From contig WAJY01000241.1 in NCBI GenBank assembly GCA_015523645.1, positions 1-23,003 on the forward strand: 23,003 bases of DNA, written 5' to 3'. The translations under genes and the position numbers were made by a program. Under the pieces are notes generated by a model, which did no database searches, was not told the DNA's origin, and was given only the letters and a program-made list of their open reading frames with translations. Positions 1,576-18,873 of this stretch are shown here, piece by piece. This DNA comes from Geoglobus sp. Its GTDB lineage: Archaea; Halobacteriota; Archaeoglobi; Archaeoglobales; Archaeoglobaceae. Within the stretch, counting starts at the first letter, position 1. Each line of letters starts with the position of its first letter.

Positions 1576-2565
1576 TTACCTTGTATGAAACTTGGCTGGA
1601 AAACCAAGAATCTTTATCTTCTCCCCCTCAAACTCCACCTCTCTGACATTCCAATAGTTTTTCAGAGAATCCTTCAGCGATCTTACAATTGAGTAAGGAA
1701 CCTTCTCATTCAGAGCTTTTTCAATCTCCTCTGAAGTCAGGTTTTCCAGCTTTTTTTCTATCTCCCTCTTTATCTCATCAAATCTTCTCACCCTCTCCTC
1801 AAACGTCATGCCATTGTAACCAAGATCAAGAGACAAGCACAATTCATCCCAGAACTTCTGCTCATCCAGAATTCCAAAGGAAACGTAGCAGTCTTTTGCC
1901 CTGTATATCTCATATCCTGGATTCCTGTAAAAATCGGGTAAATGCTCTCCTCGATTAATCATAGAAGATGCATGAAGAGGTATAGAAGAAATAGCAGTAT
2001 CGTACATGCTCAGGTCTATATACACACCCTCTCCAGTTCTCAGCTTTCTTATGTAGGCTGAGAGTATCGCAATTGCCGAAAACAGAGAGGATGAGAGGTC
2101 AGAAAGCTGTACATTTGGATCTACAGGTTCATCTCTCTTCAATCCTGCAAGCCAGATTATTCCAGCATGAGAGAGTATGTTTATGTCATGAATTGGTCTT
2201 GTTAGGTCTGATTTCTGCCCAAAACCGCTTATAGAGCAGTATATTATTCCCTCATTCACCTTTCTCACATCCTCATAGGATATTCCCAGCTTTCTTACTG
2301 TGCCAGGTCTAAAACCTTCAACAACAACATCAGCCTTTTCAGCAATCTTTAAAAACTCTTCTCTACCTTCCTCGCTTTTTAAGTTTATTCTGACAATTTC
2401 CTTTCCGTAGTTGAAGTTTGCAAAAATTTCCTTTCTATAGCGCATTGGATCACCTTCAGGCGGTTCGATCTTTATCACCCTTGCTCCAAGATCGCTCAAA
2501 ATCTTGCAGCAGTATGGTGCTGGGTAGTAGTATGCGACCTCAACAACAACCATGCCTTTGAGCAT
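1576..2565 (-). CDS. Family III CoA-transferase fold protein, alpha-methylacyl-CoA racemase-like
   Basis: The protein has the CaiB/BaiF fold: an N-terminal [19 protein letters not shown] nucleotide-binding segment and [13 protein letters not shown]. With the ATG at 2565 (329 residues), His126 falls in IHDINILSH and Asp156 in QLSDLSS. These match in motif and spacing the His126/Asp156 catalytic pair known from Mycobacterium tuberculosis alpha-methylacyl-CoA racemase. A Glu/Asp pair near 234-235 (LDEQKFW) may be the partner of that enzyme's Glu241. I infer epimerisation of 2-methylacyl-CoA thioesters, although a CoA-transferase role is not excluded because Asp156 is also the transferase nucleophile position. 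It is slightly short for the family (usually about 360). It diverges from the beta-oxidation operon across a promoter region of about 56 bases. A TTG at 2574 is a less likely start. Confidence 0.82.
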
Positions 2566-2588
2566 GGAAAACAACAGAAAACATTATT

Positions 2589-2610
2589 AATTTAACAATT
2601 GCGTTAAATT
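2589..2610. promoter_or_regulatory. Perfect inverted repeat in the divergent racemase/thiolase promoter (candidate operator)
   Basis: AATTTAAC (2589-2596) and GTTAAATT (2603-2610) are exact reverse complements separated by AATTGC. The 22-base element lies between two divergent starts (2565 minus, 2622 plus). It overlaps the AT-rich stretch that must supply both TATA boxes, so a bound protein could block both promoters. No regulator is identified. AT-rich palindromes also arise by chance. Confidence 0.5.
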
Positions 2611-2621
2611 CGGTGACAATT

Positions 2622-3785
2622 ATGGCAGTCATTGTGAGCGGTGTTAGAACACCCATCGGCAAGTTCGGAGGTGGATTAAAAGACGTTTCTGCCGTTGAGC
2701 TCGGAAGCATAGTTATAAGAGAGGCAATAAAGCGAGCCGGGATATCTCCTGAAGATGTGGATGAGGTTATCATGGGACAGGTTGTTACTGCAGGCTGCGG
2801 TCAGAATACTGCAAGACAAGCAAGCCTTCTGGCTGGAGTTCCAAGTAATGTTCCAGCCTACCAGATAAACAAGGTATGCACATCTGGACTAAAGGCAATA
2901 GCCCTTGGCAACATGGCTATTGAGAGTGGTGAGGCTGAGGTTGTTGTTGCAGGTGGTATGGAAAGTATGAGCAATGCTCCATATGCATTAATGAAGGCAA
3001 GATGGGGTTACAGAATGTTCAATGACTCTCTTGTTGATCTCATGGTTCACGATGGTTTGCTGGATCCGATTTACAAGCAGCACATGGCAGAGAATACAGA
3101 AGATGTTGCCGATGAGTTTGGGGTTACGAGGGATGAGATGGATGAGTGGGCGTACAGAAGTCATGTAAGGGCTGTAAAGGCTATTGATCAGGGAAAATTC
3201 AAAGAGGAAATTGTTCCGGTGAGAGTTAATGGAAGGATTGTTGAAGTTGATGAGAATCCGAGGAGGGATACAAGTCTTGAAAAGATAAAGAGTTTAAAGC
3301 CTGTTTTCAGAAAAAACGGAAAAATTACAGCTGGAAACGCTCCAAATACAAGTGATGGAGCTTCTGCCGTTGTTCTGATGAGGGAAAAGAAGGCTAAGGA
3401 GCTTGGAGCTGAACCAAAGGTGGAAATAATCTCGTACGGACAGGCTTCGCAAGATCCAAAGTACATTGCCACAGTTCCTGCATATGCTGCAGAAAATGCA
3501 TTGAAAAAAGCTAAGCTGGACAAGGATGACATAGGTCTCTGGGAGATAAACGAGGCATTCGCAGCAGTAACGCTGATTTCAGCAAAATACGTGATGAATC
3601 TTGACCTTGAAATCGTTAATGTTAATGGGGGTGCGATAGCTCTTGGGCATCCAATAGGTGCAACTGGGGCGAGGCTTGTGGTAACGCTCATGCATGAGAT
3701 GATGAGAAGGAGAGTTGAGTTGGGAGTTGCAACATTATGTGCAGGCATGGCTCAGGGAGATGCAGTAGTCTTGAGGAAATATTGA
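2622..3785 (+). CDS. Acetyl-CoA C-acetyltransferase / 3-ketoacyl-CoA thiolase
   Basis: The protein (387 residues) is a complete classical thiolase, which cleaves 3-ketoacyl-CoA with CoA to release acetyl-CoA, or runs in reverse. The acyl-accepting Cys86 lies in NKVCTSGLKAIALG, the catalytic His343 in GGAIALGHPIGATGAR and the second Cys373 in TLCAGMAQG. This is the full catalytic set of the acetyl-CoA acetyltransferase family, unlike the divergent archaeal HMG-CoA-pathway thiolase. I chose ATG 2622 because GGTGA lies seven bases upstream; the in-frame GTG at 2613 is inside that ribosome site. It leads a compact operon with acyl-CoA dehydrogenase and 3-hydroxyacyl-CoA dehydrogenase, so a catabolic beta-oxidation role is the best inference. 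No enoyl-CoA hydratase is in the operon. Confidence 0.94.
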   Translation: MAVIVSGVRTPIGKFGGGLKDVSAVELGSIVIREAIKRAGISPEDVDEVIMGQVVTAGCGQNTARQASLLAGVPSNVPAYQINKVCTSGLKAIALGNMAIESGEAEVVVAGGMESMSNAPYALMKARWGYRMFNDSLVDLMVHDGLLDPIYKQHMAENTEDVADEFGVTRDEMDEWAYRSHVRAVKAIDQGKFKEEIVPVRVNGRIVEVDENPRRDTSLEKIKSLKPVFRKNGKITAGNAPNTSDGASAVVLMREKKAKELGAEPKVEIISYGQASQDPKYIATVPAYAAENALKKAKLDKDDIGLWEINEAFAAVTLISAKYVMNLDLEIVNVNGGAIALGHPIGATGARLVVTLMHEMMRRRVELGVATLCAGMAQGDAVVLRKY

Positions 3786-3795
3786 GGTGAACCTC

Positions 3796-4944
3796 ATGAA
3801 CTTTGAGCTTGATGAGGAGCATAAAATGCTTCAGGCTGCTGTAAGGGAATTTGCCGAGAAGGAGATAATGCCCTACGGAAAGGAGTATGATGAGAAGAGG
3901 GAATATCCGATGGAAATTTACAGAAAAGCTGCCAAACTAGGATACATCGGAGCAAGCATACCGGAAGAATACAATGGAGCAGGAATGGACGTGCTTGCTG
4001 AGGCAATTATCAGCATCGAATTTGCCAGGGCAGACAGCGGAATAGGATCTGCAATAGATCTTGCTGTTCTTGGTGTTCCGATGATCATGAGGTTCGGTAG
4101 TGAGGAACAGAGGGAGAACTTCATGGCTAGGGTTCTGAAAGGTGAGGGACCTTCAGCCATTGCCATCACAGAACCCGATTGCGGTACAGACGTTGCTGCA
4201 ATAAAAACTAGAGCGATAAAGGATGGAGACGAATGGATATTGAATGGAACAAAGACGTTCATAACAAATGGAAGCGTCGGAATTTTCACAATAGTTCTTG
4301 CGAAGACAGCAAAAACGAATCCACCTCATCGTGGCATATCAGCATTCATAGTTGAGCCTGAAAGAGAAGGCTATACTGCAAGGCAGATAGATAAGATGGG
4401 GATGCGCTGTCATGATACATGCGAGATCATGTTGAATGGGGTGAGAATTCCTGAGGATCATCTTGTTGGGAGGGAGAACAACGGCTTCTATCAGCTAATG
4501 GCATTTTTCAATGAAAGCAGAATCAAAATTGGTGCTATACACCTTGGAATTGCCCTCGGGGCATATGAGAGAGCTCTCAGCTATGCAAAGGAGAGAAAGT
4601 CCTTTGGAAAGCCATTAATTGAACATCAGGCAATAGCATTCAAGCTTGCAGAAATGTATACAGCCATTGAAGCCAGCAGACTTCTTGTGTTGAAGGCTGC
4701 TTGGCTTGTTGATAAGGGTAAAGCCGATCCCGCTTTAAGCTCTGCAGCAAAACTCTATGCCAGTGAGACAGCAGTCAAGGTGACATACGAGGCTGTTCAG
4801 ATATTTGGCGGTTATGGCTATAGCAAGGAGTACGATGTTGAGAGGTTTTACAGGGATGCAAGGGTTGGGACGATTTATGAAGGTACTAGTGAGGCTCAAA
4901 AAATTGTAATTTCAAGAAAACTTGCTGGAAAGATAAGGGTGTGA
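3796..4944 (+). CDS. Acyl-CoA dehydrogenase (FAD)
   Basis: The enzyme (382 residues, normal length) catalyses the first step of beta-oxidation, making trans-2-enoyl-CoA and passing electrons to an electron-transfer flavoprotein. The FAD/substrate segment AIAITEPDCGTD is at about 121-132 and NGTKTFITNGS at 150-160. The C-terminal YEGTSEAQ carries the catalytic base Glu362, at the position used by short- and medium-chain enzymes (not the isovaleryl type). The chain-length preference cannot be read from this. ATG 3796 is preferred: GAGGTGA sits directly upstream and contains the in-frame GTG at 3787 that gives a three-codon-longer reading frame. It starts ten bases after the thiolase stop, and the next gene begins five bases after its own stop, so all three are one transcript. 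No etfAB genes are in the window. Confidence 0.95.
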   Translation: MNFELDEEHKMLQAAVREFAEKEIMPYGKEYDEKREYPMEIYRKAAKLGYIGASIPEEYNGAGMDVLAEAIISIEFARADSGIGSAIDLAVLGVPMIMRFGSEEQRENFMARVLKGEGPSAIAITEPDCGTDVAAIKTRAIKDGDEWILNGTKTFITNGSVGIFTIVLAKTAKTNPPHRGISAFIVEPEREGYTARQIDKMGMRCHDTCEIMLNGVRIPEDHLVGRENNGFYQLMAFFNESRIKIGAIHLGIALGAYERALSYAKERKSFGKPLIEHQAIAFKLAEMYTAIEASRLLVLKAAWLVDKGKADPALSSAAKLYASETAVKVTYEAVQIFGGYGYSKEYDVERFYRDARVGTIYEGTSEAQKIVISRKLAGKIRV

Positions 4945-4949
4945 GTTGA

Positions 4950-5813
4950 ATGAGGATTGAGGAGGTAAGCGTTGTTGGTGTTGTTGGTGCAGGAACAATG
5001 GGTCATGGAATAGCTCAGGTTTGTGCTATGGCTGGTTACAGTGTAGTTATGATAGATATCGAGGAGAAGTTTCTGGAAAGGGGGATGGAAAGCATAAGGA
5101 GAAGTCTTGAAAAACTTAAAGAGAAAGGGAAAACAGAGGACGTTGAAGAGATAATTGAAAAGATAGAGACAACCACAGATCTAAAAGGCTTGGAAAAAGC
5201 TGATGTTGTAATTGAGGCGATTATAGAGGACATGAATGCAAAGAAAGAAGTTTTTAGAGAGCTGAGCGGTATAGTTAAGAGGGAAGATGCAGTCTTCGCC
5301 TCAAATACATCAACCCTCAGCATTACAGAGCTTGCCTCGGTCACAAGAGCCCCGCAGAACTTTGTCGGAATACACTTCATGAATCCCGTTCAGATCATGA
5401 AGGGTGTTGAGATTGTTAGGGGTTTGCTAACAAGTCAAGAGACTTTGAATTTCGCTGTTGAGTTCTGCAGAAAAATTGGAAAAGAGCCGATTATCTGCAA
5501 GGATTCACCTGGCTTTATAAGCAATCGAATACTCATGCCTTGGATAAATGAGGGCATATGGGTTCTTTATGAGGGAATTGCGAGCAAAGAAGAGATAGAC
5601 AGAGGAATGAAACTTTTCACAAACGTACCAATGGGACCTCTTGAGCTTGCTGACTTAATTGGCTTGGACATCTGCCTCTCAGCAATAGAGACACTTCACA
5701 GAGAACTTGGAGACAAATACAGACCATGTCCACTTTTGAAACAGATGGTTAAAGCCGGACTATTGGGAAGAAAAACTGGAAAGGGATTCTATGATTATAC
5801 TGAGCCTCAATAG
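4950..5813 (+). CDS. 3-hydroxyacyl-CoA dehydrogenase (NAD)
   Basis: The protein (287 residues) is a stand-alone 3-hydroxyacyl-CoA dehydrogenase of the size of bacterial Hbd/FadB2. The dinucleotide fold [14 protein letters not shown] lies at 10-23. Asp36 at the end of the second strand favours NAD over NADP. The catalytic His142 lies in GIHFMNPV and its partner Glu154 in [16 protein letters not shown] at about 186-195 begins the C-terminal dimerisation domain. It has no fused enoyl-CoA hydratase domain, so that step must be encoded elsewhere. It is the third gene of the thiolase operon. Its last 23 bases are overlapped by the membrane-protein gene at 5791 in another frame. Confidence 0.94.
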
Positions 5814-9935: not shown

Positions 9936-10265
9936 TCAAAGAAAATCCTTTTTAGCCAGTTCATCCAAAATTATCTGAGCTATCTGATGAATCAAATCTT
10001 CTATCGGCTTTGAAACCCTTAGCATCATTATGGCATTTGAATCCAATGGCGGTGCAACAGCCATCTCAACGCCTTCAATTCCTGCATCTCTTACTGCTTT
10101 TGCTATCTCACCCTTTGCAATAACAACATCCCCCCTCTTCATGAGGTATCCTGTATGAACAGTGTCAGGCATTTCCACGAAAAGAATGAAGGTTGTGTAA
10201 TTCTTTCCTCTCTCAAGTATCTGGTAGCTGATTTTCCTTCCCTCTATTTCAAAGCTTCCTTCCAT
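9936..10265 (-). CDS. Conserved-looking hypothetical protein, about 109 residues
   Basis: I do not recognise a family. The protein begins with two strand-like segments (SFEIEGRKISYQILERG and YTTFILFVEM), then shows alternating strand and helix ending in an amphipathic helix (IEDLIHQIAQIILDELAKKD). It looks like a small soluble alpha/beta protein with no cysteine and no obvious catalytic or metal motif. I prefer ATG 10265: a TATA-like CTTTTAAAAT centred near 10292 lies about 27 bases upstream and suggests a leaderless transcript. A TTG at 10271 is the alternative. It diverges from the 10415 gene across about 150 bases. Confidence 0.68.
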   Translation of the reverse strand: MEGSFEIEGRKISYQILERGKNYTTFILFVEMPDTVHTGYLMKRGDVVIAKGEIAKAVRDAGIEGVEMAVAPPLDSNAIMMLRVSKPIEDLIHQIAQIILDELAKKDFL

Positions 10266-10314
10266 GATCAATGATCAATTAAAACTTCTTTTAAAATTTT
10301 ATTTTCATGCAATA

Positions 10315-10414: not shown

Positions 10415-10849
10415 ATGGCTGAGAAGATGAGAGTGGTTCTGTGCGGATACGATCCGGTTCTTGTTAGAGGATATGTGAGAGCGAAAAATGAGGAGGCTCT
10501 CTGGTTCTATCTTCCAAAGGAGCTGTACAAGGATTACAACCTAAAACCGGGTGACAAGGTTAAGGGAACTGTTGAGAAGATATATGCTGGAGCAACCGGA
10601 GAGGTTGTTGCTGAGCCGAATGAAGATTTTGAATGGACGACATCCCAATTCACCGGAATGGCTGTTGTTGTGGATTTTGACTTTATTGCAAAATACAAGC
10701 TAACAGCCTGGCACTTCTTGGAGCTTACAGTAAAGTCTGTTGTTCAGGATGGAGAGGAGAAGGAGGTTTATCCGGGGGAGGTTAAGGAGAGAAAGATCTG
10801 GCCTGAGGATAAGCTGAAGCTCAGGTATACACTAGCATACGTTGAATGA
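10415..10849 (+). CDS. Hypothetical protein (144 residues), coupled to an MBL-TPR hydrolase
   Basis: I do not recognise this family. After VLCGYDPVLVRGYVRAKN, a segment PKELYKDYNLKPGDKVKGTV resembles the swapped-hairpin pattern of AbrB-like or OB/beta-barrel proteins. The fit is loose, and no DNA-binding claim follows from it. The remainder (FEWTTSQFTGMAVVVDFDFI to RKIWPEDKLKLRYTLAYVE) is strand-rich with several aromatic residues. It has one cysteine and no membrane segment. GGTGA lies about ten bases before the ATG. The last four bases (ATGA) overlap the start of the metallo-beta-lactamase gene, so the two are translationally coupled and probably act together. Confidence 0.75.
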   Translation: MAEKMRVVLCGYDPVLVRGYVRAKNEEALWFYLPKELYKDYNLKPGDKVKGTVEKIYAGATGEVVAEPNEDFEWTTSQFTGMAVVVDFDFIAKYKLTAWHFLELTVKSVVQDGEEKEVYPGEVKERKIWPEDKLKLRYTLAYVE

Positions 10850-11922
10850 AAAGCATGTCCTTGAATGAATGGGTAAGAATAGGGGAAAGTGGTTTTATTT
10901 CCAATATTCTTTTTCTTGAGGGCTTTGAGAATTCTGCAAACATATACGTTGTTGAGGGTGATGGGGAGATATCTCTAATTGATACAGGCAATGACTATAC
11001 AGCCTTTCCAGAGCTTTTTGACATTCACAAGGTTGATGAGATATCTGCTGTATTTTTAACCCATTCCCATAACGATCACAGCCTTGGGTTAATAGATCTC
11101 CTACAAAATTACACCGATTTTGACAATCTTGACTTGTATGTTCATGAAGTTTTCCATGAGAGGTTGAAGAAGGTTATAGAGCATTATGGAAGGGATATCA
11201 GAATCAGAACTCTGAAGGGTGGAGAGAATATCAGACTCTCTGGAGAGAGATTTGAGGTTCTCAAAACTCCCGGGCATACAATTGACAGCCTCTCCCTATA
11301 CCATCCGGAATCACTAACCCTTTTCTCAGGTGATGCTGTCTCGGCAAAGCCTGTTATAGACAACACGCTTGGAGGAAGGCTTACAGACTTCATAATCTCA
11401 TTGAGACATCTCAGAAAAAAGAAGGTTGAGCTAATATTGCCAGGACATACACTTCCTGGATTGAACAGAGACAATGAAATTCTGAACAGAGCATATCTCA
11501 AAGCAATAGGCTTTCTCTCTCCAAATTACTCGCTTGTTGAGTCTGCAAGGGAGGCTATAAAAGCAGGAATGATTGAAGAGGCTTTGTTTGCACTTGAAAA
11601 GCAAATAGAGCTTGAACCTGAGGATGAAGAGGCGAAAAAAATGTATGCCTCGCTTCTTGCAGATTTGGGAGAAAGTGAAAAGGCAGTAAAGCTAATCAAG
11701 GAACTTCCAGAATCTGCAGACACGCTTTATCTTTTGGGAATGATTGCAATGAATGATGGGGAACTTGAAACCGCTGAAAAATACTTGAAAAAATCACTTG
11801 AAATGAGGGATGACAGACTGACCAGACTCGCTCTCGTGTCTGTTTTGGTTGAAATGGGGAAAATTGAGGAGGCTAGAGAATTTCCGGAGTTCAAATTGGT
11901 TGAAAAAATTAATGAGAGATAG
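10846..11922 (+). CDS. Metallo-beta-lactamase-fold hydrolase with C-terminal TPR repeats
   Basis: The protein is 358 residues. About 15-205 form a metallo-beta-lactamase fold with a full two-metal set: THSHNDH at 72-78 (His73, His75, Asp77, His78), His144 in TPGHT, Asp163 in SGDAV and His201 in LPGHT. This pattern matches glyoxalase II-like thioester hydrolases and many uncharacterised hydrolases. About 225-350 are helical and contain tetratricopeptide-like repeats (for example AIKAGMIEEALFALEKQIELEPEDEEAKKMYASLLADLG, here read as a repeat by its spacing of Ala/Gly/Leu), which usually bind other proteins. No signal peptide is seen, so it is cytoplasmic. It overlaps the previous gene by ATGA. 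The substrate is unknown; hydrolysis of a thioester or lactone is one option. Confidence 0.88.
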   Translation: MKSMSLNEWVRIGESGFISNILFLEGFENSANIYVVEGDGEISLIDTGNDYTAFPELFDIHKVDEISAVFLTHSHNDHSLGLIDLLQNYTDFDNLDLYVHEVFHERLKKVIEHYGRDIRIRTLKGGENIRLSGERFEVLKTPGHTIDSLSLYHPESLTLFSGDAVSAKPVIDNTLGGRLTDFIISLRHLRKKKVELILPGHTLPGLNRDNEILNRAYLKAIGFLSPNYSLVESAREAIKAGMIEEALFALEKQIELEPEDEEAKKMYASLLADLGESEKAVKLIKELPESADTLYLLGMIAMNDGELETAEKYLKKSLEMRDDRLTRLALVSVLVEMGKIEEAREFPEFKLVEKINER

Positions 11923-11923
11923 C

Positions 11924-11961
11924 GTGACAAACCGTTAAGATTTTATATTGGATATTGTCAC
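11924..11961. promoter_or_regulatory. Inverted repeat bracketing the TATA box of the CoA-transferase operon
   Basis: GTGACAA (11924-11930) and TTGTCAC (11955-11961) are exact reverse complements 24 bases apart. Between them is TTTTATATTGG (11941-11951), the probable TATA box for transcription starting near 11970. Such flanking is what a dimeric repressor or activator site would look like. The regulator is unknown. Confidence 0.5.
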
Positions 11962-11991: not shown

Positions 11992-13500
11992 ATGGGAGAG
12001 GAAAATGGTAAAACAATTGAAATTGAAATAAGTGATATCAGGGATACTCTTCTGCCAAGACCATGGCCAGTAACCAAACCAAGGAAAAAGGAGGAGATCT
12101 ATGCTCCATGGGTTAAGGATCCGAGAGATCCAGAGGGAAAATACGGAGCATTCATTGAGGAGAACATTAGCTGGGAGAAGGCTGAAGGAAAGCCATGGGC
12201 ATTGGATGGACTGCTTGTATTGGACTGCACCATATGGGGAATGGCTGGGGCAATCTGCGGTTCATATCTAGCAGAGCTGGGAGCAACTGTTGTTAAGATT
12301 GAACCACTTGAAGGCGATCCGCAAAGATACCTGTATCCTTTTGGAAGAGAGGAATATGCATTTGAAGATATATACACCGGAGAGAAGGTGAGTCCGACAT
12401 TCATACATGAGCAGAGGAATAAGTATTCAGTAACCTTGAACCTTGAAACTGAGAAGGGAAGAGAGCTTTTCAAAAAGCTTGTTACAAAAGCTGACGTGGT
12501 TCTTGAAAACTACCCGCCAGGTACATTTGATGAGTGGGGCATAGGTTACAGACAGCTAAGCAAGATAAATCCAAGGCTCATATACGTGTGGTTCGGTCAG
12601 CTTGGACAGTGGGGTAGCATGAAGGACAGAACCTCAAAATATGGACAGTGGATGCTTGATCCTGTAGGGCTTTGTTGCAGTGAGTTCGTCCATTCAACAG
12701 GTTATCCTGCTGACTTACTGCCAAGAGAGCATGGAGGTAACCCATCACGCTCTGGAGAGTGGGTTGGAGACATAGTTGCTGGAGTCCATGGAACAATTGC
12801 GATTCTTGCAGCTCTCTATTACAGAGAAAACGTCAGCAATAGAGGTCAGTTTATTGAGGCTACATCTGCTGAGTGTTACATGGATATTTGTGATTTCAAT
12901 GTTGCTTGGTATGGTTTTGATGGCAGTATAAAGGCTAGAACCGGTGGTTGGGATCCGAATCTCAATCAGTACGCTTGGAATCCATGCAAGGATGGATATC
13001 TGATGATAGGTGGTCAGACTGACAGGCTTTGGTACAGAATCTTGCAGGTCATAGCTCAAGAAGATCCAGAGGGAGCTAGACTCATTGCTGAGGATCCATT
13101 CCTCAAGGAGATGGCTGCGAGGAATGCCCTTGAAGGGTTGATCAAGACCTACACGATCACAGCCCAGTGGCTTGCTCACAACACAAGAGCTGAGGGAGAG
13201 AGAAAGATGGTTTCAAGAGAGGTTGCTGCTGCTCCAGTGCTGTTTATAGATGAGATTGCCGAGTATGAGCACTTCGTTTATAGAAGGCATGTGACCGAGG
13301 TTTATGACGAGCATTACGGTAGGGTGTTCGTCTCAAACTCACCTCTGGCTCACCAGCACAAGACCCCTGCAAGGATAAAATGGCTCGGTAGACCTCTCGG
13401 ACTTGATAATGGAGAGATTTTTGCAAGATACCTTGGCATAGGACCTATGGAGCTTAAGAAGCTCGCATTGGAAGGAGTTGTTAAGTGGTATCATGAGTGA
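11992..13500 (+). CDS. Family III (CaiB/BaiF) CoA-transferase, long subunit A of a paired enzyme
   Basis: The protein is 502 residues, about 100 longer than usual. It starts with an unusual segment of about 70 residues rich in Pro, Trp and charges (PRPWPVTKPRKKEEIYAPW). The CoA-transferase fold follows: SYLAELGATVVKIEPLEGDP (91-110), then GTFDEWGIGYRQLSKINPRLIY. Asp260 in WVGDIVAGVHG is at the position of the nucleophilic Asp that forms the aspartyl-CoA anhydride in formyl-CoA transferase. The known reaction type moves CoA between a donor acyl-CoA and an acid. It is paralogous to the next gene 11 bases downstream, so a heterodimer like benzylsuccinate CoA-transferase BbsEF is inferred. The substrate is unknown. 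Assigning it to BbsE or BbsF would need a tree. Confidence 0.88.
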   Translation: MGEENGKTIEIEISDIRDTLLPRPWPVTKPRKKEEIYAPWVKDPRDPEGKYGAFIEENISWEKAEGKPWALDGLLVLDCTIWGMAGAICGSYLAELGATVVKIEPLEGDPQRYLYPFGREEYAFEDIYTGEKVSPTFIHEQRNKYSVTLNLETEKGRELFKKLVTKADVVLENYPPGTFDEWGIGYRQLSKINPRLIYVWFGQLGQWGSMKDRTSKYGQWMLDPVGLCCSEFVHSTGYPADLLPREHGGNPSRSGEWVGDIVAGVHGTIAILAALYYRENVSNRGQFIEATSAECYMDICDFNVAWYGFDGSIKARTGGWDPNLNQYAWNPCKDGYLMIGGQTDRLWYRILQVIAQEDPEGARLIAEDPFLKEMAARNALEGLIKTYTITAQWLAHNTRAEGERKMVSREVAAAPVLFIDEIAEYEHFVYRRHVTEVYDEHYGRVFVSNSPLAHQHKTPARIKWLGRPLGLDNGEIFARYLGIGPMELKKLALEGVVKWYHE

Positions 13501-13511
13501 GGTGATTTGAG

Positions 13512-14915
13512 ATGGTGGGTAGTTGGAGTTTTGATCCTCCATTTGATAGAAATCCTGAAACAGATGAAGAGATGGAAAAAATACCTTTTGAGGAATACTG
13601 CAGGAAGGTTTTTGATCCGAAAAAGACATTTGACAAGCCTGAAGCTTTGAAGGGCTGGAGACACATATCATCAACAATGTACATTCTAAGTCCACATGTG
13701 GGAGCAACACTTGCAGAATATGGAGCAGAGGTTATTAAGGTTGAGATGCCAAGACTTGGAGATCCAATGAGACACACCTCACCCTTTAATGAAGCTTATC
13801 TCTGGCCCGAAACTGATCACAGACCCCTTGTTGGAACAGGATTTGGATTCCTACATGCTAACAACAACAAGTACTTTGTTACCCTAGACTATCACGCTGA
13901 AGAAGCAAAAGAACTTTATTACGATCTTGTGAGAATCTCAGACAGCCTTGCAGAGTGTTATCGCCCTGGAACTTTCTACAGATGGGGAATTGGCTATCCT
14001 CAGCTTAAGGAAGTGAATCCGAGACTTATTTACTGCTGGCTTGGTGGCTTCGGTAACTACGGACCAAGAAGATATGGAGGGAGCTACGACATTCTTGGAC
14101 AGGCTTGCGGAGGACTTGCAGCCATAACAGGATGGCATGAGGATTTTGGAGGACACCCAACAAAGCATACAAACTGGATTATAGACTGGTACTCTGGGCT
14201 CACCTGTACTATTGGATTGCTTGCAGCAGCTCATTACAGAAGAAAAACTGGAGAAGGGACAATGATCGACTTCTCACAGATAAGTGCATCAACAAGAGCC
14301 ACGGGCTATTCATTCCCGCTCTATGGCAGGTTTGGTGTGGTGAGACAGAGGTGGGGCAACTGGGACACGTTGCTCTGTGTTCATGGAATCATAATGACAG
14401 GAAAGACTGACGATCCGGAGCATCCAAACCCGCAGATAAGTGTTGAGAGCAGATACGTTATGGTTTCAGCCTTCCAGGATGAGGACTTCAGAGAACTCTG
14501 CTATCTCATAGGCAGACCTGATCTCTGGGAGAAGTACAAGTCCTTCAAAGAGAGGGTAAAGCCCGAGGCTCAGATAGAAATCTACAGAGCTCTTGAGGAG
14601 TGGGCATCTGACAAAACAAGGAGCGAGGTTGTTGAGGCTATAAACAATGCTGGGTTGATAGCAGTCCCAGTTATGTCTGCAAAGGACATATATGAGAGTG
14701 ATCACTTCTGGGAGAGGGGCACGATAAGGTGGGTTGATGATCCATTGTTTGGAGAAGTTTTAACCCAGAACTGGCATTGCAAGCTTAGCGAGACACCACC
14801 AAGAACAAAGTGGGTATGGAGACCGATTGGTAGTGACAATATTAGAATATACCACGAACTGCTTGGATATCCAATGAGCAAGCTCAAGGAGTTCTGGGAG
14901 AAAGGGATTATCTAA
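13512..14915 (+). CDS. Family III (CaiB/BaiF) CoA-transferase, long subunit B of a paired enzyme
   Basis: The protein (467 residues) is paralogous to the preceding subunit; compare [20 protein letters not shown] here with FDEWGIGYRQLSKINPRLIY there. An N-terminal extension of about 45 residues precedes [20 protein letters not shown] (67-86). [17 protein letters not shown] is the usual middle motif. Asp225 in WIIDWYSGL occupies the catalytic aspartate position, so both subunits of the pair keep it. About 80-120 contain an insertion with [14 protein letters not shown] lies ahead of ATG 13512. The next gene starts 12 bases after its stop. Function is inferred as CoA transfer to an unidentified carboxylic acid. 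The high aromatic content (many Trp and Tyr) is notable but does not identify the substrate. Confidence 0.88.
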
Positions 14916-14927
14916 GGAGGTGTAAGA

Positions 14928-15401
14928 ATGGTTTACTACTGGGAATGTGAATGTGGATGGGTCAACTACCTTGATCCATATTATTTCTGGAACTGGGAAG
15001 GGAAGGTGAAGTGTGCTGGATGTGACAGCGTTGCAAGATTCAGATTCCTAAACGGCGAGCTGTTGGAAGGACCGACAAAGGTTGATGAGGAGCCTGATGT
15101 CTTGCCACTCTATGCAGACAATCCAAACGATGGATATGTTGCATACAAGGTTGGAGTAGAGGGCAAGACGAGACCCTTCTACGGCTTGATGAGAGATCCA
15201 AAGACCTATACAGGAGAGGCTAGGGTTAGAACAGAAAATCTGAGGGGTAATTTCATAAGGAGTGCTCCGAATCAGCCGAAGAAAGCTGGTTTTGCAGAGG
15301 TCAGGAGATTTGCCTGGATCGACAGAACAAAGAGCAGCGATGTCTGGGGAGAGGACAAGTATCCAGGAAAGCCTGTTTATGGTCCTGATGTGGAGGAGTG
15401 A
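14928..15401 (+). CDS. Cysteine-ribbon protein of the CoA-transferase operon, unknown family
   Basis: The protein has 157 residues. At the N-terminus, Cys7-x-Cys9 and Cys29-x2-Cys32 (CECG and CAGC) form a zinc-ribbon-like or iron-sulfur-binding knuckle pair in a very aromatic setting (YLDPYYFWNWEG). These are the only cysteines. The rest (about 50-157) is polar, rich in Pro, Gly and Arg, with few predicted helices (DEEPDVLPLYADNPNDGYVAY and later RRFAWIDRTKSSDVWG), and looks like an extended or beta-rich domain. It has a perfect ribosome site (AAGGAGGTG, about seven bases before ATG) and sits between the paired CoA-transferases and a five-cysteine protein. A structural or electron-transfer subunit of the CoA-transferase complex is my inference. 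I do not recognise the family. Confidence 0.8.
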   Translation: MVYYWECECGWVNYLDPYYFWNWEGKVKCAGCDSVARFRFLNGELLEGPTKVDEEPDVLPLYADNPNDGYVAYKVGVEGKTRPFYGLMRDPKTYTGEARVRTENLRGNFIRSAPNQPKKAGFAEVRRFAWIDRTKSSDVWGEDKYPGKPVYGPDVEE

Positions 15402-15406
15402 TAGCC

Positions 15407-15694
15407 ATGGAGAGTGAGGCGAAGGAAAAATTCAGTTTTCCAGAAGATGCTGGACCCAAGCCACCAATTCTCACTCCAGAGCAGGCTGAATTTATAAAGC
15501 AGTTTCCCCACAAGTGCAAGGACTGCAAGTGGCTGAAGCCGATAATTCCTGGCACGGTATTTCCACCAGCAGACCTTGTTGGATACTGCAAGATAATACA
15601 CTGGCCATTCTACTGGTGTGTTAGCAAATACGTTGTTGTCAAAAACTGCAAATGGTTTGAGGAAAGAAGTGAAGATCAATACCTCAAACACTAA
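15407..15694 (+). CDS. Small five-cysteine protein, possibly a HiPIP-like iron-sulfur subunit
   Basis: The protein has 95 residues. Cysteines are at 37, 40, 61, 71 and 81 (KCKDCKW...GYCK...YWCV...NCKWFEE). The CxxCKxx start and the closing NCKWF recall the small beta/gamma subunits of benzylsuccinate-type glycyl-radical enzymes, which are known to bind a [4Fe-4S] cluster in a fold like high-potential iron-sulfur protein. That likeness is from memory of the motif, not an alignment, and no glycyl-radical enzyme is in the window. ATG 15407 has GGAGGAG eight bases upstream; the in-frame GTG at 15398 lies inside that site. The five-base gap from the preceding gene marks the same operon. A zinc-binding role is the alternative. 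Confidence 0.78.
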   Translation: MESEAKEKFSFPEDAGPKPPILTPEQAEFIKQFPHKCKDCKWLKPIIPGTVFPPADLVGYCKIIHWPFYWCVSKYVVVKNCKWFEERSEDQYLKH

Positions 15695-15696
15695 AT

Positions 15697-15704
15697 TTTT
15701 AAAA
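15697..15704 (+). promoter_or_regulatory. TATA box of the 47-residue cysteine-rich gene
   Basis: TTTTAAAA begins three bases after the stop of the previous gene and is centred 25 bases before ATG 15726. No ribosome site is present, so transcription from here would be leaderless and separate from the upstream operon. Confidence 0.5.
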
Positions 15705-15722
15705 TCTTTCTTTTTTCTTTTT
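15705..15722 (+). terminator. T-rich tract after the CoA-transferase operon
   Basis: Fifteen of 18 bases are T on the plus strand, directly after the stop of the five-cysteine protein. Archaeal RNA polymerase often terminates at such tracts without a hairpin, so this may end the operon transcript. It overlaps the promoter-to-ATG interval of the next gene. Confidence 0.4.
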
Positions 15723-15725
15723 ATC

Positions 15726-15869
15726 ATGCAAGAATATTTCTGCATTTATGATCCTGCTGTTAGATGTATTGAGGATCAAAGCCATGATAAATGGGAAAAG
15801 GCTTGTAGAACCTGCCCGATTTTGGAAGGTCTGAAGTCTGGAAAGGGATGCGCAAGCATAGAATGGTAG
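15726..15869 (+). CDS. 47-residue cysteine-rich microprotein
   Basis: The microprotein has five cysteines at 6, 14, 27, 30 and 42 (FCIYDPAVRC, ACRTCPILEG, GCASIEW) in 47 residues. The CxxC pair plus flanking cysteines suggests zinc or iron-sulfur binding. It carries both acidic (DPAVRCIEDQ) and basic parts. The start is ATG 15726, with a TATA box centred 25 bases upstream and no ribosome site, hence leaderless. The frame stays open upstream to 15618, but that part overlaps the preceding gene in another frame and is unlikely to be coding. The next gene begins nine bases after its stop with a clear AGGTGA site, which makes a two-gene unit likely. Function is unknown. Confidence 0.68.
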   Translation: MQEYFCIYDPAVRCIEDQSHDKWEKACRTCPILEGLKSGKGCASIEW

Positions 15870-15878
15870 GTGAAAGCC

Positions 15879-16151
15879 ATGGTTCACGATTTCGGCAGAT
15901 TCGGGAATATTCAGGAGATAAAGATGATGGTTGAGAGATGGTACAGCAAATACATGGACATGGGAGATGAAATGGCTGTTCAGATGTTCATGGATGATCT
16001 TGAGTCTGTCTTTCCCTACATCACATTTCTCTACCAAAGGGGAGAGATAGACTTTGATGAATACAATGAGTTTCACAGTTTTTGTGAGGAACTGATAGAG
16101 AGGCTTATGGAAAAGGCTGGAATTGAAGATATCGACAGATCCTTCCGCTGA
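15879..16151 (+). CDS. Small acidic helical protein (90 residues), unknown function
   Basis: I recognise no family. The sequence is mostly helical and acidic: helices are likely at about 10-28 (IQEIKMMVERWYSKYMDMG), 30-45, 58-80 (DFDEYNEFHSFCEELIERLMEKAG). There is one cysteine and no membrane segment. ATG 15879 has AGGTGA five bases upstream; the in-frame GTG at 15870 is part of that site. It is nine bases behind the 47-residue cysteine-rich gene and 28 bases ahead of the Trm10-type gene, which has its own TATA box. A partner or chaperone-like role for the neighbouring small metal-binding proteins is possible but only inference. Confidence 0.72.
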   Translation: MVHDFGRFGNIQEIKMMVERWYSKYMDMGDEMAVQMFMDDLESVFPYITFLYQRGEIDFDEYNEFHSFCEELIERLMEKAGIEDIDRSFR

Positions 16152-16179: not shown

Positions 16180-17166
16180 ATGAGGCTAAAGGACATCTTT
16201 ATTGAGAAGGCTAGAGAGAGGGGAATTGAGAAGATATATGCTCCAAGGCTGAAAAAGTCCGATCCTCTTGCATTTCTCGCTTCCCAGATAGCAAGCGGTA
16301 GAATTAGCCTTTACAAGCCGAAAAAATCAAATAGGCTTTGCCTCACGATTTATGGAGAGTTTGTTGAGGGAATTCCAGATGCGTTTGCAGGAAAAGGGGA
16401 TGGTAAGGCAATTCTGGATAAGAATGATCTTCTTGATTTTTCATCCCGATTCCCCTATATTGTGATAGATTGCAGTTTAAGGGACATTCATTCACAGAAA
16501 GAGCTGATCAGCCTTGACAAGCAGATCAGAAAGACTCTCTCTGTTGTTAGAAAATTCATGTGGGATGAGAGGCTTGTTATCACATCCTTCAATTCTGGAA
16601 TCTCTGCACTACACTACCCATCAACTGAGGATTTTTTGGAGAAAATGGGCTTTAAAAAAGCAGTTCTTCTTGATCCAAATGCTGAGGAGAAGTTCAATGG
16701 AGAGAGAGCTGAATGCTTTATAATCGGTGGAATAGTTGACAAATCTGGGAACAAGAAAGGCGCAACAGAGAAAATTTACAGAAGGCTTGAAAAAAGCGGA
16801 ATAGAGGTTGAAAGAAGAAGAATAGAGCTTAGAGGAGATATAACAGGAGTTCCTGACAGAATAAATCTTATTGCCGAGATTGTGCTTAGGGCGGTGTTGG
16901 ATGGTTGCGATGTTGAAAAAGCCATATATCTCTCTCAAAACAGAAAGATAGCTAGATGGAGGCTTAGAAAGGAGATTGTTAGAAAGTCTGAGATTGCATC
17001 TATCAATGGCAGGAGATTCAGATTTATCAGAAAATCCCTTTTCAAGGATTTATCTGGCTGGCTTAAGATCAATGAGGAGGATTTTTATAGATGCGCAAGA
17101 GATATGGGCATTATTGTGATCGATGATAGCTTAACTCCGAAAAGACTTAAAGTAAAACCTTTTTAA
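16180..17166 (+). CDS. Trm10-type SPOUT tRNA m1A/m1G position-9 methyltransferase
   Basis: The protein (328 residues) matches the archaeal Trm10 family, whose known members methylate N1 of A9 and/or G9 of tRNA with S-adenosylmethionine. The SPOUT knot region has CFIIGGIVDKSGNKKGAT, with Asp187 at the position of the aspartate proposed as catalytic in yeast Trm10. It then continues through RGDITGVPDRINLIAEIVLRAVL. An N-terminal RNA-contact region of about 80 residues precedes it, and a basic C-terminal domain (REIVRKSEIAS onward) follows. Whether it acts on A, G or both cannot be told from sequence by eye. It is followed nine bases later by the thioredoxin gene, which may be cotranscribed or use its own promoter inside this gene's end. 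Confidence 0.88.
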   Translation: MRLKDIFIEKARERGIEKIYAPRLKKSDPLAFLASQIASGRISLYKPKKSNRLCLTIYGEFVEGIPDAFAGKGDGKAILDKNDLLDFSSRFPYIVIDCSLRDIHSQKELISLDKQIRKTLSVVRKFMWDERLVITSFNSGISALHYPSTEDFLEKMGFKKAVLLDPNAEEKFNGERAECFIIGGIVDKSGNKKGATEKIYRRLEKSGIEVERRRIELRGDITGVPDRINLIAEIVLRAVLDGCDVEKAIYLSQNRKIARWRLRKEIVRKSEIASINGRRFRFIRKSLFKDLSGWLKINEEDFYRCARDMGIIVIDDSLTPKRLKVKPF

Positions 17167-17175
17167 ATCAACCAC

Positions 17176-17586
17176 ATGGATGAGATTGAGAGAATCAGAC
17201 AGAAAAAGATGCTGGAATTGATTGAAAAATTGAGCGAAAAAGGTGAGAAAAAGATGAAAAGCCAAATTGATCATCCTGTGAAGGTGGATTCAAGAAATTT
17301 TGATGAAGTCATCTCCAAAAATGAGAATGTTGTTGTTGATTTCTGGGCTGAATGGTGCATGCCGTGCAGAATGATCTCGCCCATAATCGAGGAACTTGCA
17401 AAGGAGTATTCAGGAAGGGTAGTTTTTGCAAAGCTAAACACAGATGAAAATCCATCGCTTGCCGGAAGGTTTGGGATTACAGGAATTCCAACTCTGATGT
17501 TTTTCAAGAATGGCAGGGCGGTTGACAAGATTGTAGGAGCCCTGCCAAAGGCTGAGTTGAAAAGATGGATTGAAAGGAACCTGTAG
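17176..17586 (+). CDS. Thioredoxin with N-terminal charged extension, active site WCMPC
   Basis: The protein (136 residues) has a thioredoxin fold at about 34-136. The redox pair is Cys61-Met-Pro-Cys64 in FWAEWCMPC, with Met in place of the usual Gly, and the cis-proline is Pro105 in TGIPT. The Trx fold reads normally otherwise (DFWAEW, LNTDENP, FKNGR). The first 33 residues (IERIRQKKMLELIEKLSEKGEKKM) form a charged helix absent from typical 105-110-residue thioredoxins; similar extensions occur in some archaeal thioredoxins. It serves as a cytoplasmic dithiol-disulfide reductant. No thioredoxin reductase gene is in the window. There is no ribosome site. A TATA-like CTTAAAGT around 17146-17152 in the end of the trm10-like gene lies about 27 bases upstream. 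Confidence 0.93.
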   Translation: MDEIERIRQKKMLELIEKLSEKGEKKMKSQIDHPVKVDSRNFDEVISKNENVVVDFWAEWCMPCRMISPIIEELAKEYSGRVVFAKLNTDENPSLAGRFGITGIPTLMFFKNGRAVDKIVGALPKAELKRWIERNL

Positions 17587-17634: not shown

Positions 17635-18873
17635 ATGATAGCGAGGGACGTTGAATTTGAGGGACACCTCATCGATTCAAACATATTCACTAGGGTGCTT
17701 GACACGATACTAGACCTTGAAGGAGAATTTGAAATAACCGAATTCAAGATAGGGAAGAGAAAGGAGGACAAGAGCTATGCAAGAATGACAGTTTTTGGTA
17801 GAGATGAGAGGCATCTTGATGAAATACTAAAGGAACTTCACAAGCTTGGTGCAAGAATTCCGGATGCGGAGAATGTTGAGCTTTCAAGAGCTCCAGCCAA
17901 CAGAGTTTTACCGGAAAACTTCTACGTGACAACAAACAATCCCACATACATAAGGCTGGATGGAGAGTGGATTCCTGTTGAGGACATAGGGATGGACAGG
18001 GTTATTGTTGTCGAACCAGATAGAAAAAAAGCCTACTGCAAGTTTCTTAATGAAGTTAGAGTGGGAGATCTTGTTGTTGTAGGGGAAAGAGGAGTTAAGG
18101 TGATTCCACCTGAAAGACCTAGGAAGTCCTCAACCTTCGAGTTCATGGGAGGATATGTATCGACTGAGAGACCCACTCCAAATGTGATAAAGGCAATTGC
18201 AAGAGAAATTGTTGGGGTAAAGAGATCGGGGGGAAAGATAGCAGTAGTAGCAGGACCGGCTGTAATTCACACAGGATGCAGAGACTCGCTTGCAGGGATG
18301 GTGAGGGATGGATACGTGGATGTTTTGCTTTCCGGAAATGCCTTGGCTGTTCATGACATTGAGATGTCTCTGTTTGGCACCTCTCTTGGAATGGATATAA
18401 AAACTGGAAGACCCGTTCCTGGAGGTAACAGGCATCACATACATGCAATTAGCAAGATAATATCTGTAGGTGGAATTAAGGAGGCTGTGGAAACTGGCAT
18501 GATAAAGGAAGGTATAATGTACGAATGCATCAAAAAAGGCGTTCCATTTGTTCTTGCGGGATCAATAAGGGATGATGGTCCGTTGCCAGAAGTAATAACA
18601 GACACCATGGCTGCAAAAAGGGCAATGAAGGATGCTTTGAAAGGAGTTGAGATGGTTATAATGCTTGCCTCGATGCTCCACAGCATTGCAGTTGGAAACC
18701 TGCTTCCCTCGACTGTCAAAACTATATGTGTTGATGCTAATCCATCTACAGTTACAAAGCTTGTTGACAGAGGTAGTCATCAAGCCATAGGAATTGTCAC
18801 GGATGTTGGGCTCTTCCTCCCAGAGTTGTATGAAAAGATAAAGGAGGTTGAAAAGGAGTTATCCCACAATTAG
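17635..18873 (+). CDS. Archaeal LOR/SDH-type ornithine cyclodeaminase
   Basis: The protein (412 residues) matches the TIGR00300/LOR-SDH family, in which an archaeal member (Methanococcus maripaludis) is reported to convert ornithine to proline plus ammonia using NAD(P). The same domain forms the C-terminus of cyanobacterial ArgZ/AgrE. An N-terminal LOR-like domain (about 1-100, starting REVEFEGHLIDS-like as RDVEFEGHLIDS) precedes a nucleotide-binding C-terminal half containing SGGKIAVVAGPAVIHTGCRDSLAGMV, SGNALAVHDIE and PGGNRHHIHAISKI. It lacks the arginine dihydrolase domain of the cyanobacterial enzymes. It is not homologous to the classical bacterial ornithine cyclodeaminase. A TATA-like GATTTTTATTG is centred 27 bases before the ATG. 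Its last 15 bases overlap the convergent PhoU-type gene. Substrate assignment is by family only. Confidence 0.85.
   Translation: MIARDVEFEGHLIDSNIFTRVLDTILDLEGEFEITEFKIGKRKEDKSYARMTVFGRDERHLDEILKELHKLGARIPDAENVELSRAPANRVLPENFYVTTNNPTYIRLDGEWIPVEDIGMDRVIVVEPDRKKAYCKFLNEVRVGDLVVVGERGVKVIPPERPRKSSTFEFMGGYVSTERPTPNVIKAIAREIVGVKRSGGKIAVVAGPAVIHTGCRDSLAGMVRDGYVDVLLSGNALAVHDIEMSLFGTSLGMDIKTGRPVPGGNRHHIHAISKIISVGGIKEAVETGMIKEGIMYECIKKGVPFVLAGSIRDDGPLPEVITDTMAAKRAMKDALKGVEMVIMLASMLHSIAVGNLLPSTVKTICVDANPSTVTKLVDRGSHQAIGIVTDVGLFLPELYEKIKEVEKELSHN

Follow-up and report, generated by a model that had tools for sequence, protein, structure and literature searches.

What kind of system do two long CoA-transferase genes and the small cysteine-rich genes behind them make up in an archaeon? 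The question is raised by WAJY01000241.1, a contig of 23,003 nucleotides from a Geoglobus species (this whole stretch is called the window here), which belongs to a draft Archaeoglobi genome (G000; 1.71 Mb in 294 contigs, 90.5% complete). An original prediction, made from the letters alone, had proposed a candidate undescribed system for activating acids with coenzyme A (CoA), in which two paired CoA-transferases are accompanied by two to four tiny cysteine-rich or acidic partners. Our comparative analysis showed that most of these genes, together with two others, are kept as a set across archaea and bacteria. With a probability of roughly 0.55, we read the set as encoding a family III CoA-transferase heteromer that works with small proteins of its own, is associated with a further two-gene module and is predicted to act in anaerobic carboxylic-acid breakdown.

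A gene unit shared by archaea and bacteria

On re-reading the sequence, the six open reading frames (ORFs) A to F and their cysteine motifs were as the original prediction had described them, as were the first three of the intergenic gaps between A and F (11, 12, 5, 31 and 9 bases). All six genes lie on the plus strand. A (11992..13500, 502 residues) and B (13512..14915, 467 residues) are CaiB/family III CoA-transferase subunits that matched PF02515 with E-values of 3.3e-75 and 2e-78, respectively. C (14928..15401, 157 residues) combines a predicted N-terminal zinc ribbon with a conserved tail some 70 residues long, while D (15407..15694, 95 residues, with an ATG start) carries an HxCxxC-x20-C-x9-C-x9-C pattern. 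E (15726..15869) is a five-cysteine protein of 47 residues and F (15879..16151) an acidic, fast-evolving protein of 90 residues. Two further plus-strand genes lie outside the coordinates of the original prediction: T (10415..10849, 144 residues), whose fold was not recognised, and M (10846..11922), which has a metallo-beta-lactamase fold (PF00753, 4.3e-19) and a C-terminal TPR.

In order to follow these genes elsewhere, we scanned a one-genome-per-species collection with B, which is therefore present by construction, and kept 80 of 102 relatives. These 80 loci and the window, 81 in total, were searched with profiles of the other genes. Ten of the 80 were archaeal (Archaeoglobales) and the record titles of the remaining 70 named Deltaproteobacteria/Desulfobacterales/Syntrophobacterales, Aquificota, Bacillota, Chloroflexota, Acidobacteria, Nitrospinae and Desulfovirgula. 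A gene was counted only where enough sequence followed B (700 bases for C, 1100 for D, 1500 for F, 2600 for T and 5200 for M) or, for A, where 1700 bases preceded B; for T and M, either side was allowed, up to a distance of 8 kb. Among the loci with room, A was found in 67/67, C in 75/75 and D in 73/73. F was present in 69/72 (missing from L003, L012 and L039), T in 65/66 (missing from L007) and M in 52/57 (missing from L003, L037, L039, L044 and L076, although in L003 it lay just beyond the 8-kb limit). E was restricted to 7 of the 81 loci, all archaeal, and also occurred in further archaeal genomes, for example L084-L086, L094 and L095. The shared set thus consists of A, B, C, D and nearly always F, plus T and M, with E as an archaeal extra. 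Of the two to four small partners originally counted, C, D and usually F proved to be shared, while E is archaeal only and T and M had to be added. The conserved order of C, D and F across archaea and bacteria places the gene set beyond chance, and the idea that it would extend outside one genome was borne out from archaea to several bacterial phyla.

The same genes are arranged in two ways, usually T-M-A-B-C-D-(E)-F in archaea and A-B-C-D-F-T-M in bacteria; one archaeal locus, L009, has the bacterial order. Since T-M stood apart from, or opposite to, A-D in L003 and L082, the unit has two halves, A-D and T-M, that are loosely joined.

Because the loci of the main count had been chosen through B, we also searched C, D and T alone in 59 Archaeoglobi genomes. 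C had 14 carriers and D was found in the same 14; T occurred in 12 of these 14 and in none of the other 45, the two C carriers in which it was not found (G012 and G022) having C contigs that may be short. B adjoined C in all 13 carrier loci fetched of the 14 (L081-L090 and L094-L096, the window's own among them; G012 excepted), so within the Archaeoglobi the small proteins were not found apart from the transferases, as the original prediction implied. In a phylum sample of 295 genomes, C appeared only in those same 14, all from the window's own family. Among the archaea the unit is patchily distributed (14 of 59 genomes, 6 of 16 genera), which is consistent with its transfer or with repeated losses.

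When B was used in a protein search, 323 clusters reached E <=1e-60 among 7996 candidates scored, and the names given among the 120 clusters listed were CaiB-like, CoA transferase or hypothetical. Present annotation therefore reduces the unit to a 'CaiB-like CoA-transferase' and hypothetical proteins. Five assemblies, recognised by contig accession prefix and title, held two copies of the unit or part of it (L048/L076, L044/L059, L047/L062, L039/L065 and L045/L070), which suggests paralogues with different substrates.

The CoA-transferase subunits

PF02515 spanned nearly its full length in both subunits (positions 1-360 of 366 in A and 1-365 of 366 in B), far above the cut-off. Ahead of it stand N-terminal extensions of about 70 residues in A and 45 in B, both holding conserved residues. 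Asp260 of A and Asp225 of B aligned to the single Asp column of solved family III proteins, a column that we take to be that of Frc Asp169. The original prediction had given both subunits a catalytic Asp and an extra N-terminal segment, and both features stood up to alignment. The two positions are not equally kept: B Asp225 was Asp in 80/80 aligned orthologues, whereas A Asp260 was Asp in 65/69, with Ser in its place in two archaeal and two bacterial loci (L007, L008, L016 and L019). For this reason B is probably the catalytic subunit.

Trees of A and B, each built from 34 loci, formed two separate clades with broadly alike branching. They were not identical (L009 and L011, for example, were placed differently) and the three CaiB outgroups sat on very long branches. 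The pairwise distances of A and B correlated at 0.94 overall and at 0.89 within bacteria.

The small proteins and the T-M module

C is predicted to be a zinc-ribbon protein because Cys9, Cys29 and Cys32 were present in 77/77 members and a further ligand, either a second Cys or a His 2-3 residues before the Cys ahead of NYLDP, in 74/77. Of the three exceptions, L012 has Asp at that place and in L042 and L079 the region was cut by the called starts. In the structural model of C, the block means of the predicted local distance difference test (pLDDT) were 82-94 up to residue 80, while pLDDT fell below 50 at residues 86-135; the tail holds many invariant residues, yet is unfolded in the model.

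In D, His35, Cys37, Cys40 and Cys61 were conserved in 75/75 members, Cys81 and His65 in 74 and Cys71 in 66/75, a pattern that likely reflects a single four-cysteine metal site binding Zn or Fe-S. The five Cys of E aligned in all 7 archaeal copies. F, the most variable gene of the unit, kept Trp21 and Cys69 in 70/70 members. No Pfam family matched C, D or T above its curated cut-off in the 37, 38 and 36 members scanned, the best E-values below cut-off being 0.0018 for C (Zn_ribbon_5, which matched below threshold in 8/37 members), 0.05 for D and 0.014 for T; likewise, no match above cut-off was obtained for E and F with the window copy alone.

The metal ligands of M were counted in 62 rows, covering HxHxDH, His144 and Asp163, with the last His outside the count. 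H73 was kept in 61 rows, H75 in 60, D77 in 52 (E in 9), H78 in 61, H144 in 61 and D163 in 60. As the ligands counted are kept, M is probably an active hydrolase.

A proposed mechanism and its competitors

Gene content, order, co-occurrence and conserved active-site residues are direct observations. Beyond them, we infer complex formation, bound metals, CoA transfer, hydrolysis and the class of substrate. In the mechanism that we propose, A and B would pair as a heteromer to which B supplies the essential catalytic Asp; this residue would bear the acyl group during the transfer of CoA from a donor thioester to the acid substrate. The tail of C probably wraps a partner subunit, D would be a small metal-binding subunit (Zn or Fe-S) and F an accessory. 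For T together with M, the probable role is to hydrolyse or edit a thioester of CoA, or a lactone, within the same pathway. The first proposal, in which the small proteins belong to one complex as structural or redox subunits, is plausible. More tentatively, and with less confidence than an even chance, A-D, F and T-M might form a multi-subunit CoA-transferase machine with obligate metal-binding small subunits, dedicated to one anaerobic substrate, a unit that would have been transferred whole between Archaeoglobales and sulfate-reducing bacteria. That seven genes, among them small families lacking a Pfam match above cut-off, are kept together in hyperthermophilic archaea and sulfate-reducing bacteria alike implies that they have a specific metabolic role.

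Several points weigh against a dedicated heteromeric transferase. C had no fold match in the structure comparison and the model of D was weak (pLDDT 66). Within bacteria, the distance correlations of C and D were weaker, at 0.41-0.63, and all these correlations were calculated without a housekeeping control. By the catalytic Asp alone, a transferase is not distinguishable from racemases and further family III enzymes, and T-M can sit apart from A-D, as in L003 and L082.

The competitor that survives best, though we find it doubtful, is a single catabolic operon that makes no single complex. A and B would then be an ordinary heteromeric CoA-transferase, and co-regulation and joint transfer would have kept C, D, F, T and M beside them as individual proteins of the pathway or its regulation. 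The parting of T-M from A-D agrees with this, as does the variability of F. Moreover, the stretch upstream of A was alike in most of 8 aligned archaeal sequences, as though A had its own promoter, and in 23/80 loci a same-strand gene of one sequence group lay upstream of A, the single member scanned being a sigma-54 activator. Nevertheless, an operon alone leaves unexplained that C and D were never missing where the sequence sufficed, and that the tail of C is highly conserved yet predicted to be unfolded on its own, as would be expected of a wrapping subunit.

It is less probable still that A and B use the family III fold without moving CoA between acids, working instead on a single acyl-CoA, which they would isomerise, racemise or rearrange by intramolecular transfer. 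Solved PF02515-related proteins do include racemases, the NCBIfam matches of A and B were far below the curated cut-offs, and the top solved match, 4ed9, is named just CaiB/BaiF family protein. However, formyl-CoA, succinate-hydroxymethylglutarate and benzylsuccinate transferases outscored racemases for A, and nearly all of them did so for B, which argues against this reading.

Genomic neighbourhood and hosts

To see which genes accompany the transferase unit, we scanned 125/125 listed downstream and 110/158 listed upstream ORFs; the tallies exclude loci L001-L009, L014, L015 and L023 and all ORFs shorter than 190 residues, and the 48 unscanned upstream rows comprised most of the sigma-54 group, of which one upstream row was scanned, along with some others. 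Among the best 25 of 91 and 126 neighbour families, AMP-binding accounted for 6/125 ORFs downstream and 8/110 upstream. Other frequent families among the best 25 per side were GATase_4 (7/125), Amidoligase_2 (5/125) and Lactamase_B (5/110), with the rest at 4 or fewer. Given that the scanned neighbours varied save for these few families, the unit looks self-contained. Similar AMP-forming acyl-CoA ligases were nearby in 18/80 loci, and for five scanned ligases none of the best 25 NCBIfam models reached its cut-off. A 4HBT-type thioesterase was nearby in 12/80 loci and was also found in the presumed Ferroglobus placidus genome.

In the window, O (9939..10271, minus strand, 111 residues) adjoins T-M. 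This gene was found in 8/81 loci, every one archaeal, and it keeps company with T-M where T-M has parted from A-D (L003 and L082). Between M and A lies an inverted repeat, GTGACAA-N24-TTGTCAC (11924-11961), which arose in 0 of 100 shuffles; L001 and L002 both retain its right half, and the left half carries a single change in L002 and is missing from L001. Just downstream of the unit, a 328-residue protein (16180-17166) gave an SFM1-like Pfam match below cut-off and has a relative after F in L001, L002, L004 and L005. It is followed by a thioredoxin (17176-17586) and the adjoining LOR/SDH-ArgZ-like protein (17635-18873). Farther away, positions 1579-5813 hold a beta-oxidation set, with a minus-strand CaiB protein of 332 residues and then plus-strand thiolase, acyl-CoA dehydrogenase and 3-hydroxyacyl-CoA dehydrogenase.

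With respect to the hosts, dsrA was above cut-off in 25 of 34 bacterial carriers, a selection among the 70 bacterial loci, and in 5 of the 14 archaeal carriers (G010, G021, G022, G046 and G054), with weak matches below cut-off in G000, G023 and G027. Its absence above cut-off from 9/34 bacterial and 9/14 archaeal carriers led us to reject sulfate reduction as a requirement and to regard it as a frequent host trait. A second candidate was benzoyl-CoA metabolism. BzdO was above cut-off in 14/59 Archaeoglobi genomes, comprising 7 of the 14 unit carriers and 7 genomes without the unit; the carriers rise to 9/14 once G000 and G030, with partial matches, are included. Fisher tests that ignored kinship gave p = 0.014 with 7 carriers and 0.0009 with 9. 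The unit is carried by two closed genomes, the presumed Geoglobus ahangari genome, from the same genus as the window, and G023, the presumed F. placidus genome. The genome paper of G. ahangari states that the species lacks genes for degrading benzoate (PMC4600277). This genome breaks what was already a loose association, and benzoyl-CoA metabolism was rejected as the defining link. Both presumed species are culturable, so the substrate could be found there.

The hosts also bear on whether the unit belongs to the 'Magic' cluster for anaerobic benzene breakdown of Toth et al. 2026, or is its orthologue, which we judge very improbable. In that cluster, too, a gene for a hypothetical protein comes after two type III CoA-transferase genes that lie side by side (PMC13101534), and F. 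placidus, whose presumed genome carries the unit, is reported to use benzene (PMC3236036). In contrast, neither the flavoprotein nor the Fe-S protein or MaoC of the cluster was among the window ORFs scanned or the best 25 neighbour families per side, and the presumed G. ahangari genome carries the unit in spite of the benzoate result cited above.

Glycyl-radical fumarate-adding enzymes have small cysteine-rich subunits, and 6/14 archaeal carriers, the presumed G. ahangari genome among them, have a PF02901 enzyme, but that D (or E) is the small Fe-S subunit of such an enzyme, with A/B as its BbsEF, is the least probable explanation of all, given that PF02901 had no match in the window's genome (90.5% complete) or in 8/14 archaeal carriers, closed G023 included, and that the D profile found no such chain in the PDB.

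Comparison with known systems

We recognised no paper describing the unit among those listed by searches of open-licence literature, subscription papers and preprints being outside the scope, and the parts consulted of PMC13416013, PMC10570749, PMC8322695 and PMC3236036 contained no description of it. The claim that the system is undescribed agrees with this literature and extends no further than it; within that limit, the unit would add a family III CoA-transferase subunit architecture not found there.

The 'Magic' cluster resembles the unit in its adjacent transferase pair with a hypothetical protein behind it and in its occurrence in anaerobic Desulfobacterota. By its description it differs in that its core is a flavoprotein trio resembling GlcDEF, accompanied by MaoC proteins and an AMP ligase, and the words beta-lactamase and zinc are absent from the main text (PMC13101534). 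The window ORFs scanned included neither a flavin adenine dinucleotide (FAD)/Fe-S/FAD trio nor MaoC genes.

Formyl-CoA transferase and related family III proteins (for example 4ed9 and 10uh) are alike in fold, judged by sequence, and in the Asp column. Their chains measure about 385-456 residues, compared with 502 in A and 467 in B. They are built from a single kind of subunit and are not known to have small, conserved partners rich in cysteine.

Finally, BbsEF (PDB 9fn0) was the known heteromer named in the original prediction. Its chains, at 409-410 residues, are without the long N-terminal extensions of A and B, and it is not known to have counterparts of C, D, F, T or M. The genomic context also differs, as the window's genome had no match to the PF02901 glycyl-radical enzyme. 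By phmmer, BbsEF was not the nearest solved relative: A scored 73.1 and 56.5 bits against its chains and B 92.1 and 43.0 bits, compared with 101.6 and 105.1 bits against 4ed9. These scores, lower than those to 4ed9 and several others, led us to reject A and B as BbsE and BbsF themselves. What BbsEF does share with A and B is a build from two different family III subunits, in a system for anaerobic acid activation.

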